A stretch of DNA of 27,026 nt, from the IMG/VR virus record IMGVR_UViG_3300032316_000474, positions 1-27,026 of that record, one strand, 5' to 3'. The DNA comes from a virus. The first letter of the stretch is position 1. Each line of letters starts with the position of its first letter. A program made the position numbers and the translations under genes. Shown piece after piece: positions 3,001-27,026 of the stretch. Below the pieces are notes generated by a model that saw only the letters and a list, made by a program, of their open reading frames with translations, was not told where the DNA came from and made no database searches.

Positions 3001-5325
3001 TACTGTTATAGTAGTTGAGGTTGCTAATGGTACTGCGAATCCGTTTCCTGAGCCTGCGTTTTCGCACACGAAGATGCTGCCTACCGCATAGTTGCTGTCA
3101 ACCGTTCCGGCTACTGCGTTCCAGTCTGTAGTTGTACCGTATGTGCTAATCTGATATGTTACACCTGCTACAAACGAACCTGCTGCTATCGGAGTCACCG
3201 AAGTAGCATTGATGGTTGCAGTTGCAGTAGAGTATGTCTGCACATCAGGGTAATATGCGAGTGATCCAGGAACAGTTGACAATGCGTCAGTGTTGGTAGT
3301 GTCAATGAAGTCTACCGGATCTTTACCTACTGCACCGGAATTGAATAATTTTAAGTTTGGATAAAACTCAATGATAGGTCTTGCGGCTTTATGAGAAATA
3401 TTCGCATATGTTGTTACAATAGTAGGATCGTCGTTGTATCTTGCAGTTGCAGTGATTACATCGATGTGGAACCAGCGGTTACTTCTTGCCCATGCATTCT
3501 TATTAATTGAGTTACGTGCAATGGTAACATAGTCAGCTTGAACAGGAATATCAAGGCTGATATCCCAATTTCCGATATCCCAATCCAAGATGTCCCATGC
3601 GATGTATTCGCCTTGGCTAAACTCTTCCGGCACTACAAGTGTTTCAACGGGTACCAGTTCAATTGAGGTTCCTACGCCTTGGACATAGTATTCACCTGTA
3701 AGATAGCTTGTAGGGATTACATCGCCGTTGAAACTTACCTTTAGTCCATTAGTAAACACAACACCGTTAGGAGATGTGTAATTTGTGCGACCTAAAATTT
3801 GTGTCTCGACATTGATAGTATTATTCAAGTTATCTTCGATGAGACGAATAACACCTACTTTATTTGGATTATCTCCGTCTTGATAGTACAGTACATCAAG
3901 GGGTGCGCTAATATACGGAATCAGTTCTAGGTTGTTAGAAGCGTTAAGATAGAAAGGTATGTTATTCCATTCCGTGCCGTAAACTGGCAAGATGCGAGTG
4001 TCTGCGGGAATTGCCCCGTCTGGAATCAATCTTATGATTGGGTCAGCCGGATCGCCGATATACGTAACTACAAAGAATGTGTTTCCTACATTTACACTAA
4101 ACCCGTCTTCATACAGACCTTGGTTGACATTAACTGTCATTGTACCTGAAGCCGCAGTCAAGGTGATTGGGTCACCGTTCAATGCAGTTGAAATAGTGAA
4201 TGAAGTTGAGTTAGGAATACTTTGAATGAAGTAAACTTGTCCTAGGGTAATACCACCAAAGCCAACTCCACTAAATGTTACAGTGCCTCCTACGATCAAT
4301 CCGCTTGTACTACCCGAAGCTAAAGTAAATGCGCCAGTGTCGCAGCTACTAACAGTGAGTGTGATAGGTGCAACTAAATCAGGATCATTGGTATCATATT
4401 CAGTTTCATCAAAGTAAGAAGAAATGTATGCAATTGGTTGCGGGGTGTTATAGAAAGCAACACGCAAGCCTTGCAACGATGTGATTCCATCGATACCCTC
4501 AAATGAGTTTACGAATTGGCCGTTGATGTCATCAAAGGAGCTAGTGCTAATCACATCGGTGTTAACTGTAGTAGGGAAAATGTATTCATCTTGTGCGTTA
4601 CGTTGCGGAACTTCAAAAGTAACAAGACCCGAAGTGGCGCCGTTGTTGACTACACCGTATACATCGCGCACTGATTGATTTGGTTGTGTCGGGCTATATC
4701 CGGAAACACCAGGAGCGCCCTGAATCCAAAACGGGGAAGACTGGTCTACTTGAAAAGTATACGTGCCGCCTCTCAATAATGTGATTGCAGGATTAGTATT
4801 TGATCTGGTAGAACCTTCTCTAACGATACTATACGTGTTAGTGTTGTCGGTAACAACAAATGCTTCTCTTGAGAATACAGTCGATGCTGCGACCTGAACG
4901 GAAGGAGGCCCTTCCGGCAACCAATAATACTGATTGAAATTGATGAGAGTGTCTAGATTGGTGAACGAATCCCAGGAATAGAATTGACTCTTAAACAATA
5001 TATTATTGTTTTCAGTTATTCCACCTTCCATCTTGAGCGCATCAATGATTCCAGGATAAGTGATGAAATCTTTAGCAGTAGACTCGTCTGGCTTAGTGAA
5101 AACAACACTAGGATCCAGCTGATAGTCGGCGCGAGTTTTAGTAGGTTCAGTGACGTATGCATCAGTTGCATTGACACCGGTTCCAAATGTACTACCAACA
5201 TAGCCTTGGATGTTTGCTACACTCGGTGGATTTACGAGTTGATCGAGGGTTGCTGCCAAAAACTGTGCGTTGGGAGGGGTTTGAAAAACCTCTGGAAGAA
5301 AATTAAGTGTTCTTACTCTAGCCAT
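1..5325 (-). CDS. Very large virion structural protein at the gp7 position (partial)
   Basis: The reading frame is open from the ATG at 5325 to the left edge of the window (1775 codons, no stop found), so the C-terminus is missing. The protein starts MARVRTLNFLPEVFQ and is rich in Asn, Thr, Tyr and beta-type segments, as expected of a virion structural protein. Residues about 335-378 and 714-760 look like small beta domains common in phage tail proteins; the second contains GTTTDWN and ends in AGSGNGF. It follows gp6 in transcription order, the place T4 gp7 occupies, so a baseplate wedge role is likely, but I do not recognise clear gp7 sequence. It starts 14 nt after the gp6 stop, and that gap is almost filled by a GATAAATA late-type box with no clear Shine-Dalgarno. 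It is much longer than T4 gp7 (about 1030 aa). Confidence 0.8.
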   Translation of the reverse strand, partial: MARVRTLNFLPEVFQTPPNAQFLAATLDQLVNPPSVANIQGYVGSTFGTGVNATDAYVTEPTKTRADYQLDPSVVFTKPDESTAKDFITYPGIIDALKMEGGITENNNILFKSQFYSWDSFTNLDTLINFNQYYWLPEGPPSVQVAASTVFSREAFVVTDNTNTYSIVREGSTRSNTNPAITLLRGGTYTFQVDQSSPFWIQGAPGVSGYSPTQPNQSVRDVYGVVNNGATSGLVTFEVPQRNAQDEYIFPTTVNTDVISTSSFDDINGQFVNSFEGIDGITSLQGLRVAFYNTPQPIAYISSYFDETEYDTNDPDLVAPITLTVSSCDTGAFTLASGSTSGLIVGGTVTFSGVGFGGITLGQVYFIQSIPNSTSFTISTALNGDPITLTAASGTMTVNVNQGLYEDGFSVNVGNTFFVVTYIGDPADPIIRLIPDGAIPADTRILPVYGTEWNNIPFYLNASNNLELIPYISAPLDVLYYQDGDNPNKVGVIRLIEDNLNNTINVETQILGRTNYTSPNGVVFTNGLKVSFNGDVIPTSYLTGEYYVQGVGTSIELVPVETLVVPEEFSQGEYIAWDILDWDIGNWDISLDIPVQADYVTIARNSINKNAWARSNRWFHIDVITATARYNDDPTIVTTYANISHKAARPIIEFYPNLKLFNSGAVGKDPVDFIDTTNTDALSTVPGSLAYYPDVQTYSTATATINATSVTPIAAGSFVAGVTYQISTYGTTTDWNAVAGTVDSNYAVGSIFVCENAGSGNGFAVPLATSTTITVAAAALTGTLTNFMFIADSTALLPANTQITNISGTDTLTLTVSWAIPQNIAGTSTAILYASDTTVNNYGLFPGARVIFAADNDVTVRSKIYVSNFSVVAPSTQPVITLIVAEDGIVAPDTQTVITRGYANSGLSYWFDGIDWMQSQQKTQLNQAPEFDILDGNGVSFSDPIVYPSTTFTGCKLFNYTLGSGTKDPVLGFPIRYSSVSNQGDVSFDVSLNSDTFSYVSGGNPFNQKVNTGYVYNITSDVSYTRLLGWETAIAPSQQYQIFNFDFSLTAPAYIFICDIAALSALQPNETGWPRVKVYINNVYQEPSDYSVEIGTNSTTIQLFTQIDEDTVVQVLLLSDQVSKVGYYQVPLNLSNNPLNTDLTTVNTGDIRTQYQDIFINAPNTTGTIFGPNNFRDCGNLNPYGTKIIQNSASLVLPGTFLRNPQYNLFNALQFNSREYVKYKQLLVDTVQNTPYEQRYTPAEILDEALDQITAAKSQINAFFWSDMLPNKSSYISNSYVFNNDLDRSQYPLSHVYNFETANYNGVLVYISRAVDNIVVEKQLLIGTEYVVSTDSPTLTITIPMQDGDIVTIREYNQTYGSYVPNTPTKLGIYPKYIPQVILDSNYLIPTYFILGHDGSYTKLYGDYIPEFDILVDFRDQALLEFEKRVYNNLKLSTETPITRYEVVPGFFRTPTYSWDEFLRIYSTQFLNWIGQNRIDYKTQYFSRVNEFTYNYTNSSNKLDNSPILQGYWRGVYQYYYDTTTPDTTPWEMLGFTIMPTWWTSRYGPAPYTSDNGILWNDLEQGLIWNNGDPYINPLVARPGLSAVIPVNSNGDLLSPFKVIVSNYNPSTFNKDWVVGDDGPAELSYRRSSTFPFDLTRIFALTRPAEFYNLCVDLDNYKYNAEFNQYLFNDRSHLIPSNIEVYGNGTAKTSYINWIVDYEKQQGIDATTEITTTLDNLDVRLVYRLAGYSDKSMLQFYVEKPTPTSTNASLLIPDESYSILLYDNQPFDRLL

Positions 5326-22102: not shown

Positions 22103-22666
22103 ATGACATCACCTAGCAAAGCCAAAGGCTCATCATTCGAACGAGAAGTTGCAACCTTCTTGTCAAAGACATACAATGAAAGTTTTATTAGGGCTCCCGG
22201 CTCAGGTGCATACATTGGCGGCAAGAATCAATCTCGCAAGCAATATTTGGATGAAGGTCAGATTCGTAGCTTCAAGGGAGATATCGTCCCGGGAGTTACC
22301 TTCACTAAATTTAACGCAGAATGCAAGTCATATGCAGACTTCCCCTTTCATCTTCTTTTATCCGGAGACTGTAAACAAATCGACAGTTGGCTAGACCAGC
22401 TGATGGCTGTAGCAGAAACCGATGATTGTAATGTGCTATTCATGAAGTTTAATCGTAAAGGCAAGTATGTCGCTGTACAAGCAAAGTGTACTTGGGTTAC
22501 GGACAACTTCATTTACTACAGTTCCTCTAAGTTTGGGGACTGGATCATCATTGAATTTCAGCACTTCTTCAAGCTCAACAAAGACCTTCTTAAAGCTTAC
22601 TCAGGCTCACCTATCGCAAACATTGACACCGCGTCTACAGCTAACCTACTAACACTCAACACCTAA
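22103..22666 (+). CDS. Probable PD-(D/E)xK nuclease
   Basis: A 187-aa protein with the layout of a restriction-endonuclease-fold nuclease such as the Holliday-junction resolvase or RecB-like families. The N-terminus has KGSSFEREVATFLS, with acidic residues E13/E15 in the first helix, then APGSGAYIGG, the metal-binding Asp in GDIVPG (D60), and ECKSY (E73-x-K75), giving the D...E-x-K catalytic signature. Downstream segments are strand/helix mixtures (CNVLFMKFNRKGKYVAVQ). It lies 39 nt after gp46 on the same strand, which suits a role in recombination or branch processing, but the substrate cannot be read from sequence. The ribosome-binding site is weak. The last 45 bp contain a candidate promoter for the following structured RNA. 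Confidence 0.75.
   Translation: MTSPSKAKGSSFEREVATFLSKTYNESFIRAPGSGAYIGGKNQSRKQYLDEGQIRSFKGDIVPGVTFTKFNAECKSYADFPFHLLLSGDCKQIDSWLDQLMAVAETDDCNVLFMKFNRKGKYVAVQAKCTWVTDNFIYYSSSKFGDWIIIEFQHFFKLNKDLLKAYSGSPIANIDTASTANLLTLNT
22623..22652 (+). promoter_or_regulatory. Candidate sigma70 promoter for the structured RNA, inside the nuclease gene
   Basis: A perfect TTGACA lies at 22623-22628, followed 18 bp later by TACTAA at 22647-22652, a poor -10. A start near 22659 would be about 13 nt before the first predicted helix of the RNA. The -35 match is good but the -10 is weak, and chance occurrence within the coding region is possible. Confidence 0.35.
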
Positions 22667-22671
22667 ACAAA

Positions 22672-23190
22672 AACACAGAACCCTACATAGATGTTTGGTC
22701 GGGATTGCTCGACTCTCCTTGAGGACGCATGGAATACTGCGAACGGATTCTGGAGCCGAAGGTGCATTCCTTCAAAATTGCATAGGTGTTTACATCTATG
22801 GAATACCGATAGGGCCCTCGTTAGGTTAAGCGAACCCTAAATGAGTCTGTGTTGTACTCTGTCTTGAGAACACAGAACATGCGTTGCCGAGGAATCGAAA
22901 GATAGCCTCACTACAGTCCCAGTAAACTTTACAGGGCAACCGGTAGCGTCAATCAGCATCAAAAGCTAGGTTGACGGGGAATAGACAGCAAGGGTGACGG
23001 GCCATGGCAATGTCCTAGACCATTGGTAGTGCTAAGTAGCACTACCATGGATTCTGAACCGGCAAATATCATTCAGTAAGTCTATCTTAAACATTACCAT
23101 TAAAGAGAATGAAAAAGAATATACCGAAACGAACGAAGTGAGTAAGGTATAAGTTGTCCGAAGGACAACTCTGAATGATAGCTAGGATAG
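22672..23190 (+). ncRNA. Large structured non-coding RNA of about 520 nt
   Basis: The 564-nt gap from 22667 to 23230 has no convincing protein frame but many perfect complementary arms. Nested 5' domain: 22672-22679 with 22846-22853 (8 bp), 22681-22685 with 22810-22814 (5 bp), 22686-22694 with 22792-22800 (9 bp). Middle: 22883-22887 with 22936-22940 enclosing a GAAA-tetraloop hairpin (22889-22909) and a CCC/GGG hairpin (22918-22936); then 22947-22952 with 22971-22976. A long hairpin spans 23020-23050 (14 pairs, one bulge, perfect 10-bp arms). 3' domain: 23067-23076 with 23171-23180 (10 bp) enclosing 23120-23125 with 23146-23151 and 23152-23159 with 23163-23170 (8 bp, GAA loop). GAAA and GAA loops and a tandem G.A motif at 23129-23143 make sense only on the plus strand. 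Size, complexity and phage setting recall the GOLLD and ROOL classes, but I cannot assign it. Exact ends are estimates. Confidence 0.75.
23020..23050 (+). repeat. Strong hairpin within the structured RNA
   Basis: GGTAGTGCTA (23025-23034) and TAGCACTACC (23037-23046) are exact reverse complements with a 2-nt spacer, and CCAT/ATGG extend the stem across one bulged T. No T-run follows on either strand, so it is not an intrinsic terminator. The 2-nt spacer implies that the top pairs open in RNA. Confidence 0.85.
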
Positions 23191-23195
23191 AAGCC

Positions 23196-23229
23196 AAAAA
23201 AAGAGAGAACTAAATGAATAGTTCCCTCT
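23196..23229 (-). terminator. Intrinsic terminator of the gp26 transcription unit
   Basis: On the minus strand, AGAGGGAACTA and TAGTTCTCTCT (11 paired positions, one mismatch; 23229-23219 and 23212-23202) flank a 6-nt loop and run into seven Ts (23202-23196). The hairpin starts 2 nt after the stop codon of the frameshifted ORF at 23231. It has the classical stem plus T-run form and ends leftward transcription before it enters the structured RNA from the opposite strand. Confidence 0.85.
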
Positions 23230-23230
23230 A

Positions 23231-23461
23231 TTAGAAATATGGAAGTTGTGACTTCTTTGTGACTTCCATGTGTTCTTCTATGATCTTGTTTATTTGCTCT
23301 CGTTCAAACGAAGACATGTTTAATATGTCCTCATAGGAAGCACCACCCCTCATGTGCCATGACATATTTAGGGCACCGCTTCTTATGTTATTGACTTCTT
23401 CCTCATATGACGCAAACAGCTTCTTAATTCTTTCAGAATCGGCATTAAGAAGCGTTACTCG
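23231..23461 (-). CDS. -1-frame extension of gp26, expressed by frameshift (76 codons)
   Basis: This frame is open from the slippery site at 23467-23461 to the TAA at 23233-23231 and encodes 76 residues beginning RVTLLNADSERIKKLFASYE and ending KKSQLPYF. It is protein-like throughout: charged helix, then NMSWHMRGGASYEDIL, then an acidic/basic helix. It has no ATG, GTG or TTG start before the ATG at residue 33 (23365), and that ATG has no ribosome-binding site. In the same frame a TGA sits immediately upstream of the slippery site, so this ORF can be joined to gp26 only within a 12-nt window. Its position matches T4 gene 51, next to gene 26, and the two-product layout matches lambda G/GT tail chaperones. 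I infer it is made only as a 349-aa fusion with gp26. Confidence 0.75.
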   Translation of the reverse strand, partial: RVTLLNADSERIKKLFASYEEEVNNIRSGALNMSWHMRGGASYEDILNMSSFEREQINKIIEEHMEVTKKSQLPYF

Positions 23462-23467
23462 AAAAAA
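23419..23467 (-). promoter_or_regulatory. -1 programmed ribosomal frameshift cassette
   Basis: On the minus strand, T_TTT_TTC (23467-23461) is a canonical X_XXY_YYZ heptamer in the gp26 frame; both Phe codons re-pair fully after a -1 slip. Seven nt later a perfect 10-bp stem begins: GCTTCTTAAT (23453-23444), a 15-nt loop, ATTAAGAAGC (23428-23419). The gp26 stop TAA (23457-23455) lies in the spacer. All three usual parts (heptamer, spacer, stem-loop) are present with standard distances. Confidence 0.8.
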
Positions 23468-24279
23468 TCAGCAGGGTTCAACGTGAATGGCTGTTCATAT
23501 TCGTGGCTGCAACTTGGGCAAGTCACTTGCAATGGCTTAAGCTCAGTTCCACTCTTTAGTTCTGCGTTTCGGTCTCGGATAGCATTGTAGATATTTTTGT
23601 CACAGTTTTTCAAGAAGTCTAAAATGAATTCTGTCTCTTTAACTTCTACAGTGCCGGTTTTGACATGTTCAACAGATGCTGCAACCAACTCCATAGTCAG
23701 TAGTGTCACTCGTTCTACGATTTCATAACCTGCTTTATCTCGTTGATCTAGGTCTGTCTCCGTATCGAGTGATTTGATAAGCTTTTGAAGCTCAAACTGC
23801 TTCAATCCTGCTTCGTTTAATTCCTTGAAGGTTAGTGGTCTAAACTTAATACGGAAATGGTTAATCTCTAGCTCACTCAAGTAGTCACCTGACTTAAGTG
23901 TAGATAGGGTAGAAACTAGATTTACACCGTATGAACTGATTTCTTCACACGACGGGCACATCGAATCGATGTCAAGTGTTTCGCTTCCTGATGCAGCTTT
24001 GATGCCAATAAGAATAGCATCCATGTCGTTACTTGTCACTGCCCATGGGTTTTTAACATTAGGGATGCAACTCTTGATCAATTCAGCAATCGCAGTACCG
24101 TTGAATAACGCATCCGGAGTTCTAATAGTGATTTCATCAATCGCTGTCATGGGGTAAACTGGAAGTTCTCCTGATTCAGGTATGATCAAATCATCAGGAC
24201 TATAACCAACACCTCCGCTGGGGAGTTTAATGTAAACTGATGGTCTTCTGAAATACTGTCTTAGTGGATTGTTGTCCAT
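23455..24279 (-). CDS. 26: Baseplate hub / tail assembly protein gp26-like
   Basis: A 274-aa protein of the T4 baseplate (gp26) family, needed for hub assembly in T4. The N-terminus NPLRQYFRRPSVYIKLPSGG is the family hallmark, followed by YSPDDLIIPESGELPVYPMTAIDE and IRTPDALFNGTAI. Two CPSC pairs, at 108-111 and 254-257, could bind one zinc ion. It is longer than T4 gp26 (208 aa). I chose the ATG at 24279, with AAGGA 6 nt upstream; an in-frame GTG at 24312 lacks a ribosome-binding site and lies just after the expected late start. The TAA at 23457-23455 directly follows a slippery heptamer, so a share of ribosomes probably continues into the downstream -1 frame. Promoter: TATAAATA at 24336-24329. 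The neighbouring tape-measure gene is divergently transcribed. Confidence 0.87.
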   Translation of the reverse strand: MDNNPLRQYFRRPSVYIKLPSGGVGYSPDDLIIPESGELPVYPMTAIDEITIRTPDALFNGTAIAELIKSCIPNVKNPWAVTSNDMDAILIGIKAASGSETLDIDSMCPSCEEISSYGVNLVSTLSTLKSGDYLSELEINHFRIKFRPLTFKELNEAGLKQFELQKLIKSLDTETDLDQRDKAGYEIVERVTLLTMELVAASVEHVKTGTVEVKETEFILDFLKNCDKNIYNAIRDRNAELKSGTELKPLQVTCPSCSHEYEQPFTLNPADFFE

Positions 24280-24328
24280 TTCGGTTCCTTTTGAGCTTGT
24301 CTTTATAAACACTAAATAGTCTATAAAG

Positions 24329-24336
24329 TATTTATA
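24329..24336 (-). promoter_or_regulatory. Late promoter TATAAATA before gp26
   Basis: The minus strand carries the exact T4 late consensus TATAAATA, followed by CT. A start near 24323 would leave a leader of about 44 nt with the AAGGA site of gp26. It is the only perfect T4-type box I found among the promoters of this window; the other three begin with G. Confidence 0.7.
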
Positions 24337-24360
24337 TTTGTGAAAAAAGCATCACAAATA
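24335..24360. repeat. 9-bp inverted repeat between gp26 and the tape-measure gene
   Basis: TATTTGTGA (24335-24343) and TCACAAATA (24352-24360) are exact reverse complements with an 8-nt spacer. The repeat touches the upstream edge of the leftward late box and lies 18 bp before the rightward ATG. It has no terminator T-run. Like the repeat at 17977-17996 it sits in a divergent control region, so an operator or a leader hairpin for the rightward message are both possible. Confidence 0.55.
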
Positions 24361-24378
24361 AAATCGATAGGATAACAC

Positions 24379-27026
24379 ATGGCGGACAGTATTGATGGAG
24401 TCGATGAGCTAAACATCCGTATTGCAGAGTTGAACGACACTCTCAATAACTTTAGTTCAAGTTTGCAATCTCAGATGAGAACAAACAGCCAAGCCTTTGG
24501 TGAAAGTACCACGCGTTTAAATCAAAACAATGCTGCTGTGTCTGGATCAACTAAGTTATCCGAAATACAAGACCAAATAGACCAAAATCTAGCAAGAAGA
24601 AAGCAAGAACGCGAAGCCAACTACAGTGCAGCAGTACGTTCTACTGCTCAGGCACTCAGGAGTTTTGGCTCTGCGATGTTGAGTACTGAACAAGGGTTCA
24701 AAAAGTATGGTCAGAGTATTGATCAGGCCGGAGATGCAGTATATAGCATGGGTAAAAGTTTTGGTTTGGTGGGAGGCGCGGTCGGCGGCCTAATCAAATT
24801 TATGACTATGTTTGCCTCAACTGCATTAGGATCAGTTGATGTTCTAGTTAATTTTAGAGATGAAGTATCTAAAACTTCAGGTGCTATTCCGACAACACTG
24901 AGAGGTATCCAAGATTTGGGTATCGAGGCCGGTTACTCAGGTGATCGCTTGCAAGTATTACAGAAGATTACTATGGGCCTTGGAACTAGTCTTCAAGGGC
25001 TAGGCGGTGTTGCAGGTACTGGTGTTATTAAATTTATGCAACTCGCAGATGTCTCCAAAGATGTGCGAGATAGATTCGGTAGGATGGGCGTCGACCAAGA
25101 ACGCTTGACAGACTTACAAGCAAAATATGTACAGATGCAAGCAGCATCCGGCATGCAATATCAACTACAAAACAAAAGCATGTCTCAACTGCGTAGAGAA
25201 TCACTCGATTACGCAGATAATATGACTAGGTTGTCAGCATTGACTGGTAAACAAGCTGACACGCTACAACAAGAACAAGAACAAGTCCAGTTGGAGTTCG
25301 AAGAGCAAGCTGCTATCATGGCAGACCAAGCAAGAATACGCGAGTTGAGGGCGCGGACCGGTGACGCGGCGGCGCAGGCCGAAGCGGATCAATTAGAAAG
25401 ATCAATGAACGCTCGTAAGGAAATACAGAACTCTCTTACAACCCTTCTTGGACCTGAGCTATCATCGCAAATGTCACGAGTATTTAGGACCGGATTCTTT
25501 GACTCCAAGTCCGGCCCCCTCTCACAGATCATGCCTGAATTAGTAGGGTATCATGAAAGACTGAAGAATATCCAACCCGGAGAAGATGTAGATGCAATCA
25601 CAAGAGAACTCTTTGATACAGTTGCAAGGAAGTATGAAGAGGGCTCTATAACTTTCGAAACTGTTCTGCAGGTTATGGGAGAAGAAGGTGCTAGAGCATT
25701 AGGTCTTAATGCTGAAACATTTAAAAGACTAAACTCTTATGCCGGGAAGACGTATGATCAACTTATGGCGGATACTGAAAAAAACAGGGAACAGGCCCTC
25801 AAAGCCGATAAAGCAGCCGATGACATAGCAAAACTTAGACAAGAAGAAATTGTACTTCAGGCTAATTTTCAAAAAGCATTAGTACCGTTAGCTACTCAAT
25901 TAATGCCGATGATCACTTCTACTATGAATTTCTTGAACAAAAACTTTGTCACTATCGTAAACCCTGTACTAGAAGGTTTGGGCAGAGGTTTAGGTTGGGT
26001 GTATAATAAGATTAAAGCCTGGGTGGATGGCGACGGCATTGAAAAACTAAAAGCACAATTCGAAAAACTAAAAGAACAATTCGAAAAAATAGTCGCTTGG
26101 TTTAATAGTCCAGAAGCTAAAAAAATATGGGAAGGCCTTACAAGTTTAGGAAAAGTGGCTGCTTGGGTTGGAAACAATTTAACTGCTTTAGCCATCGGCG
26201 TCGGTAGTGTGTGGCTAGCATTTAAGGGTTTTAGTATTATTAAAGGGGTTGTGGATCTATTCAAAATACTTAAAGGAGTGCTTGGCGGTTTTGCAGGATG
26301 GGTAAGTAAGCTATTTGGAGGAGGTGCCGCCGCATCAGGTCGAGGAGGTAGTGGCGGACCGGACGGTGGCCCAGGAGCTGCGAATGACAACAAGCCGGGT
26401 CGAGGCGGCGCTCCGGGCAGGGGTAGGCTGGGCGGATTGTTAAGAGGCGGTGCAGGGTTATTAGGTCGTCTAGCAGTGCCTTTAGCTGTCGCCGGCTCGC
26501 TGTTCCAAGGGTTCTCTGGTTGGAGTGCTGCATCGTCACAAGAAAGACAAGGAACAATTTCAAGAGAAGAAGCTTCACGTAGAAGAGGTCAAGCTGTCGG
26601 TGGTACCGCCGGCGGGCTAGGCGGCATGTGGGCCGGTGCGGCAGCCGGGGCCGCTGCAGGTTCAGTCGTTCCGATTGTGGGAACTGCTATCGGCGGATTG
26701 CTCGGCGGATTGCTCGGATATGGTATAGGAAATATGGCAGGTAGAGCAGTCGGCGGTGCAGCCGGCGGGGCATTAGCAGGCTCTCCGACGGCCGATGCTA
26801 GTAAGAAAAGCACAGAAGCAATTGCTCAACATTCTGAACAAGTGGAAGTTGACACTAAACAACGAAAAGAGAATATTGAACAGAATACAAAAATAGCCAA
26901 AGATACAAAAGAACAGATGATCGTGCAGACTGAGCTATTTGGTTTGCTCACTAAGGCTATAAAAGAAACCACTTCTAAGTTTTTACCGTTTAAAATGTCT
27001 ATTGAAGATATTACTACTCAAATAGG
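24379..27026 (+). CDS. Tape-measure-like tail protein (partial)
   Basis: The frame is open from the ATG at 24379 to the right edge (882 codons and 2 bases), so the C-terminus is missing. The first 480 residues are mostly helical and Gln/Arg/Glu-rich. Hydrophobic stretches lie at about 130-155 (GGAVGGLIKFMTMFASTALG) and 599-620 (LTALAIGVGSVWLAFKGF), then a Gly/Arg-rich stretch (646-690) and a long small-residue hydrophobic region (738-800). A short heptad duplication, EKLKAQF/EKLKEQF, is at about residue 555. This pattern (long helical N-part, membrane-active Gly/Ala segments) is typical of tape-measure proteins, which set tail length and enter the host membrane; the T4 equivalent is gp29. It sits beside the gp26 chaperone-like gene. 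The ATG has AGGAT 8 nt upstream. A weak TATAAAG at 24322-24328 might be its late promoter. Confidence 0.72.
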   Translation, partial: MADSIDGVDELNIRIAELNDTLNNFSSSLQSQMRTNSQAFGESTTRLNQNNAAVSGSTKLSEIQDQIDQNLARRKQEREANYSAAVRSTAQALRSFGSAMLSTEQGFKKYGQSIDQAGDAVYSMGKSFGLVGGAVGGLIKFMTMFASTALGSVDVLVNFRDEVSKTSGAIPTTLRGIQDLGIEAGYSGDRLQVLQKITMGLGTSLQGLGGVAGTGVIKFMQLADVSKDVRDRFGRMGVDQERLTDLQAKYVQMQAASGMQYQLQNKSMSQLRRESLDYADNMTRLSALTGKQADTLQQEQEQVQLEFEEQAAIMADQARIRELRARTGDAAAQAEADQLERSMNARKEIQNSLTTLLGPELSSQMSRVFRTGFFDSKSGPLSQIMPELVGYHERLKNIQPGEDVDAITRELFDTVARKYEEGSITFETVLQVMGEEGARALGLNAETFKRLNSYAGKTYDQLMADTEKNREQALKADKAADDIAKLRQEEIVLQANFQKALVPLATQLMPMITSTMNFLNKNFVTIVNPVLEGLGRGLGWVYNKIKAWVDGDGIEKLKAQFEKLKEQFEKIVAWFNSPEAKKIWEGLTSLGKVAAWVGNNLTALAIGVGSVWLAFKGFSIIKGVVDLFKILKGVLGGFAGWVSKLFGGGAAASGRGGSGGPDGGPGAANDNKPGRGGAPGRGRLGGLLRGGAGLLGRLAVPLAVAGSLFQGFSGWSAASSQERQGTISREEASRRRGQAVGGTAGGLGGMWAGAAAGAAAGSVVPIVGTAIGGLLGGLLGYGIGNMAGRAVGGAAGGALAGSPTADASKKSTEAIAQHSEQVEVDTKQRKENIEQNTKIAKDTKEQMIVQTELFGLLTKAIKETTSKFLPFKMSIEDITTQI

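Follow-up and report, generated by a model that had tools for sequence, protein, structure and literature searches.

The locus studied lies in a 27-kb virus record (IMG/VR record IMGVR_UViG_3300032316_000474), the whole of which, at 27,026 nt, was analysed and is called the window here. Its source is a giant T4-type phage, and the window carries a tail module of T4 type, including genes for the baseplate wedge and the hub/lysozyme, together with a late sigma factor and a subunit of an SbcD-like endonuclease. The features of the locus, with their functions as predicted, are:

24379..27026, plus strand: tape-measure protein gene, divergent from gp26, matching PHROG tail length tape measure families and running off the window end
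24329..24336, minus strand: putative T4-type late promoter -10 element TATAAATA upstream of gp26, a consensus match only, with 1.4 expected by chance in the window
23455..24279, minus strand: gp26-type gene (PF12322 T4_baseplate; 274 aa, ATG start), predicted short tail-assembly chaperone (TAC-N)
23468..23470, minus strand: TGA that ends the -1 frame right before the heptamer, read from the sequence
23461..23467, minus strand: putative slippery heptamer T_TTT_TTC, read from the sequence, with T_TTT_TTY in 126/126 jumbo-type junctions and synonymous freezing
23454..23460, minus strand: 7-nt spacer GAGTAAC, read from the sequence, holding the gp26 stop TAA (23457-23455)
23419..23453, minus strand: putative stimulatory stem-loop with arms 23453-23444 GCTTCTTAAT and 23428-23419 ATTAAGAAGC, from the fold and its conservation in relatives
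23231..23467, minus strand: -1 ORF (FFRVTLLNADSERI...QLPYF) of 78 codons and TAA, open in all complete relatives and with pN<pS, predicted C-terminal domain of the long chaperone
23202..23229, minus strand: intrinsic terminator-like hairpin with a T run just past the -1 ORF stop, a consensus match only

The product of the gp26-type gene belongs to Pfam family PF12322, which it matches with E=2.2e-15 and 57.4 bits against a curated cut-off of 24.5, and it also matches PHROG 150 'baseplate hub' (E=1.4e-15). Its AlphaFold model (pLDDT 87) was matched by Foldseek to T4-like hub-assembly proteins (E=5e-25), these being viral predicted models of the gp26 family, and a Foldseek search against the PDB gave no meaningful match among solved structures. 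The Foldseek list further contained larger uncharacterised proteins of the jumbo phages Erwinia Special G, RSL1, RP12 and RSF1, for which, going by the models, a role as tail chaperones is possible. The TATAAATA element and the terminator-like hairpin are consistent with one late transcript unit for both products of the locus, and a search of the window against Rfam returned no family reaching the gathering score.

A preliminary description of the window had proposed a complete -1 frameshift cassette at the end of the gp26-type gene, and all its parts were found in place, namely an in-frame T_TTT_TTC, a stop-containing spacer of 7 nt and a perfect 10-bp stem-loop. The heptamer TTTTTTC (23467-23461) is read in the gp26 frame as GAT TTT TTC GAG TAA, and T_TTT_TTC fits the X_XXY_YYZ pattern, placed in the zero frame close to where the upstream ORF ends. 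The downstream structure, a 10-bp stem after a 7-nt spacer, falls within a spacing of 5-9 nt, and has a 15-nt loop and A-U in most pairs. The -1 frame was likewise as described: a TGA immediately precedes the heptamer, the 76 codons that follow the heptamer are open, and no start codon lies near their beginning. It stays open for 78 codons (FF + 76) as far as the TAA at 23233-23231, giving a predicted shifted product of 349 aa, and its first ATG, GTG or TTG is codon 34 (the first Phe being codon 0), inside the conserved domain. Taken alone, the window proves little, because plain TTTTTTC occurs at chance frequency (6 seen, 6.5 expected) and the 71-nt region as a whole folds no better than shuffles (z -0.29).

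The expectation that the elements would recur at the gp26 loci of relatives was borne out for the heptamer (126/126) and the intact -1 ORF, and also for a covarying stem (59 relatives), the stem being lineage-specific. Junctions were read in 17 isolated jumbo phages (including Atu_ph07, Phosso, 121Q, MIJ3, RaK2, Munch, GAP32, CBB and SCTP-2) and in IMG/VR relatives; after one locus cut by a contig end had been dropped, the set comprised 126 loci, some from contigs fetched twice, with 82 unique fusions. All 126 readable junctions in these jumbo-phage relatives have an in-frame T_TTT_TTY at the gp26 end followed by an intact -1 ORF beginning FF, with T_TTT_TTT instead of T_TTT_TTC in XacN1 and RAS14. 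Among 50 divergent representatives (<75% aa identity), T_TTT_TTC was found in 48 and T_TTT_TTT in two, and a T precedes the two Phe codons in every one, though the residue encoded there can be any of seven (D, S, H, N, R, Y, A). Of 268 gp26 columns in these representatives, only those of the heptamer codons GAT and TTT reach a synonymous identity of 95% or more (mean 46%), and the third codon, TTC, stands at 92% owing to the two TTT variants. The choice of FF codons alone gives a log10 P of about -30, assuming independent lineages. The distance from the heptamer to the gp26 stop is 9 to 33 nt, rather than 3, in several phages, with the heptamer and the -1 frame unmoved. Across the sequences compared, it is this conservation, not the single window, that confirms the cassette as real.

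The downstream structure was assessed similarly. Across relatives, the 50-nt stretch starting 4 nt past the heptamer folds more stably than gp26 windows of the same genes (mean -12.1 vs -5.7 kcal/mol; Wilcoxon p 5e-12). In the 59 sequences of the window clade, an outer six-pair stem GCUUCU/AGAAGC at a fixed position is 97.7% paired and shows compensatory changes of G-C to A-U and of C-G to U-A, with 9 double-change cells vs 1.2 in shuffles (0/500 shuffles as high). Part of the pairing could be incidental, because the same bases are also under constraint from the Leu-Leu and Lys codons, but the compensatory changes argue against this. The stem is absent or weak in the RaK2, Munch and Hallingskeid types, with no comparable hairpin past the heptamer in the isolates Hallingskeid, SNUABM_47 and Munch, and is therefore not universal.

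The -1 ORF behaves as a real coding region under purifying selection. Among 66 gapless C-domains, pN was lower than pS in all 2140 pairs, with a mean ratio of 0.38 and with close pairs giving pN/pS of, for example, 0.016 against 0.433. The two other frames across the C-domain region contain hundreds of stops, and the residues FFR, LL, W, RG, Y, N and ER do not vary among 40 aligned C-domains. That the locus is a chance arrangement or a decayed gene end with an unexpressed -1 ORF is hardly credible on these data; the chance frequency of the heptamer and the ordinary folding of the 71-nt region within the window would fit such a reading, but it is refuted by the comparative data, in which conservation is universal, the ORF is under purifying selection and the synonymous sites are frozen.

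A more serious alternative is translational coupling, in which reinitiation at the gp26 stop would yield the downstream ORF as a separate small protein, with no fusion. Overlaps of the ATGA or TAATG type occur in Atu_ph07, Phosso, 121Q and several IMG/VR relatives, annotators call truncated ORFs at phages with such overlaps, and the heptamer-less distant relatives Cygsa01 and K475 have TAATG. Reinitiation is thus possible in 11/50 representatives, since these have a possible start (ATGA or TAATG type) within 8 codons. Against this, the selected -1 ORF lacks a start of its own both in the window, up to codon 34, and in 39/50 representatives, which have no ATG, GTG or TTG before codon 14; FFR and LL, which precede every possible start, never vary; in some lineages the gp26 stop has shifted by up to 33 nt downstream with the heptamer and -1 frame fixed; and T4 has the same architecture as one fused protein. 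From the selection on the -1 frame, the missing starts and the fixed heptamer despite moved stops, it follows that the locus is not accounted for by a small protein with its own initiation, and coupling is considered improbable. Even less probable is transcriptional slippage, in which bases would be added to or removed from the mRNA on the T-run and the altered mRNA translated into the fusion. The motif is indeed a run of six or seven T, but the codon phase of T_TTT_TTC and the stem 7 nt downstream fit ribosomal slippage, and a stretch of six T before a C is short by the standards of polymerase slippage.

As a predicted frameshifted fusion, the locus was compared with the two T4 genes. With the -1 domain alone as query, tblastn reached no phages other than Atu_ph07, Phosso and, from Stenotrophomonas, CM1 and RAS14, and the more distant relatives were therefore sought via gp26. 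PF12322 covers T4 gp26 end to end (residues 1-206 of 208) and T4 gp51 over residues 1-201 of 249 only. The window-clade fusion aligned with T4 gp51 across the junction (hhalign, E 2.2e-5; reversed control 0.12), as did the cyanophage/phiAS5 fusion in a profile comparison (E 1.2e-13 over 243 columns). In these full-length comparisons the -1 ORF pairs with the C-terminal end of T4 gp51, the isolated C-domain matching the gp51 profile weakly (E 0.014) and being convincing only within the full-length alignment. The PF12322 coverage and the fusion alignments therefore indicate that T4 gp51 is a pre-fused long form and T4 gp26 the short form. The preliminary description had taken gp26 and a gp51-position peptide for a frameshift chaperone pair; that reading is supported, but the -1 peptide alone is not 'gp51', since by homology gp26 and the -1 domain together are the T4 gp51 equivalent and the unshifted product is the T4 gp26 equivalent.

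The cassette extends beyond jumbo phages. T_TTT_TTC/T is present in 79/79 complete cyanophage-type loci; S-RIM8 has T_TTT_TTC, as do Aeh1 and phiAS5 of the Straboviridae, and phiN3 has T_TTT_TTT. Among the loci examined, it is absent from T4, the Ackermannviridae Salmonella phage S117, Vibrio phage K475 and Cygsa01. A downstream domain without the heptamer, named beforehand as counting against a frameshift, thus does occur in S117, K475, Cygsa01 and T4, but not in the window's own clade. The loci of Cygsa01 (L142, 2072-2982), K475 (L225, 702-1705) and S117 (L226, 801-1607) have no T6 run, yet in the -1 frame they extend into a segment similar to the gp51 C-domain. Cygsa01 and K475 have TAATG at the gp26 stop, which suggests that the second product is made there in another way, perhaps by reinitiation. 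We would give even chances to the frameshifted single-gene chaperone being ancestral in the T4 superfamily, with duplication and in-frame fusion (genes 26 and 51) having replaced it in the T4 lineage. If so, T4 would have exchanged ribosomal slippage for two genes to set the ratio of short to long protein, and jumbo phages, cyanophages and Aeh1-type phages would have retained the frameshift state.

The neighbouring gene gives the proposed products a context. It matches the PHROG tape-measure families with E=6.1e-16 and 1.7e-12, and the gp26-type gene adjoins it as expected of a chaperone pair, though the divergent orientation differs from lambda. The two genes diverge from an intergenic region of ~100 nt (24280-24378), lambda-type order usually being co-directional. 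Short and long proteins with a common N-terminal domain are predicted from the sequence and are homologous to the gp26/gp51 pair; PMC3004832 lists T4 gp26 and gp51 as chaperones of hub assembly. In lambda, frameshifting sets the ratio of gpG to gpGT; both proteins coat the tape measure, bring in the tube protein and are not retained in the virion (PMC5009743). In the accessible part of the report on the CBB virion proteome (PMC5259590), CBB_251, the neighbour at the tape-measure position, is represented by 29 peptides, and CBB_250 (gp26), labelled 'structural protein' in GenBank, is not among the entries of the mass-spectrometry table. As far as that part of the source goes, the peptides lend weak support to a chaperone that leaves the virion.

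Taken together, the locus is very probably a -1 programmed ribosomal frameshift cassette making a short and a long tail-assembly chaperone. Most ribosomes would halt at the gp26 TAA and produce the short chaperone of 274 aa, whereas the stem-loop 7 nt farther on would make a minority pause and slip on T_TTT_TTC, the Phe-Phe tRNAs re-pairing on TTT-TTT. The slipped ribosomes would read CGA (Arg) onward and add a 76-aa domain, yielding a long chaperone of 349 aa that corresponds to T4 gp51. If the two products act like lambda gpG/gpGT, the short form in many copies and the long form in few may coat the neighbouring tape-measure protein, recruit tail-tube subunits and then leave. We infer slippage, with its efficiency and product ratio, and the chaperone action from the cassette with its conserved slippery site and covarying stem, the purifying selection on the -1 ORF, the adjacent tape-measure gene and the homology of the fusion to gp51 and of the short form to gp26.

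Between the chaperone cassette and a convergent gene (22103-22666) lies a 563-nt non-coding stretch (22667-23229) with 72-94% nucleotide identity in about 60 jumbo-phage relatives. It gave no Rfam family at the gathering score and no DNA match in isolated phage records. Its alifold consensus structure has 83 pairs and -138.8 kcal/mol vs -62 (sd 6) for column-shuffled alignments (z about -12.5), with double changes at 43/83 pairs and the plus strand slightly better. From its conservation and fold, the stretch looks like a large structured RNA that has gone unrecognised, and this candidate is the most novel by-catch of the analysis. In isolated RaK2-like phages (L003, L006, L008, L011 and L014), a gene-free (unannotated) stretch of 0.7-0.8 kb, from about 2540 to 3220-3380, lies downstream of the -1 ORF and is followed by EndoVII except in L008; this stretch may contain a divergent version of the structured region.

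Vladimirov, Gautam and Davidson (Virology 2022, 566:9-15) reportedly identified the tail assembly chaperones of T4-like phages, under a title that names a mechanism other than frameshifting. The preliminary description knew of no account of such a frameshift in T4-like phages; the subject is not new, as a citing paper (PMC12846349) credits Vladimirov et al. 2022 with poly-T slippery sites in T4-like TAC-N genes. The account of the PRFect authors (PMC10885494) is that Vladimirov et al. 2022 described one short gene and one longer fused gene, which matches the reading of gp26 as short and gp51 as pre-fused. Vladimirov et al. 2022 may already have reported the jumbo and cyanophage cases; in the literature searched, to which that paper did not belong, no report of jumbo-phage chaperone frameshifts was found. 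According to Atkins et al. (PMC5009743), G-T frameshifting is widely conserved except in T4, and the present results indicate that this exception does not extend to the large relatives of T4. The kind, a -1 frameshifted tail chaperone, is thus already known, and there is now strong sequence evidence for it in T4 relatives. No fusion was annotated in the jumbo isolate records inspected, where downstream ORFs are truncated or missing, and the annotation would be corrected for many jumbo phages and cyanophages, in which the -1 domain has been missed or called a truncated hypothetical or 'gp51' ORF. T4 gp51, which is essential and whose role has long been unclear, would be the counterpart of a frameshift product, and slippage and gene duplication as ways of setting a chaperone ratio can now be compared within one protein family.

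Among the closest known systems is T4 gp26/gp51, with which the window shares family PF12322, T4 gp26 being the short form and T4 gp51 a short-type domain with a C-terminal extension; T4 has two genes and no frameshift site, as against a single gene carrying a slippery site in the window. The cyanophage and Aeh1/phiAS5-type gp26 loci have an identical T_TTT_TTC cassette and a homologous long product, but their C-domain is shorter (about 60-65 codons) and their gp26 only distantly related. The slippery site of lambda is GGGAAAG. The likeness to lambda G/GT (PMC5009743) is one of arrangement and consists in a short protein and a rarer -1 extension made from one gene beside the tape-measure gene; here the site is T_TTT_TTC, and the chaperone and tape-measure genes are divergent rather than in one operon. 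The TAC locus of Pakpunavirus Adele and the Vandenendeviridae (PMC12846349) similarly has a poly-T site at the TAC-N end and an uninterrupted -1 ORF, formerly misannotated as a separate hypothetical gene, but its motif is GTTTTT and it belongs to another phage family; its resemblance to the window is one of arrangement.
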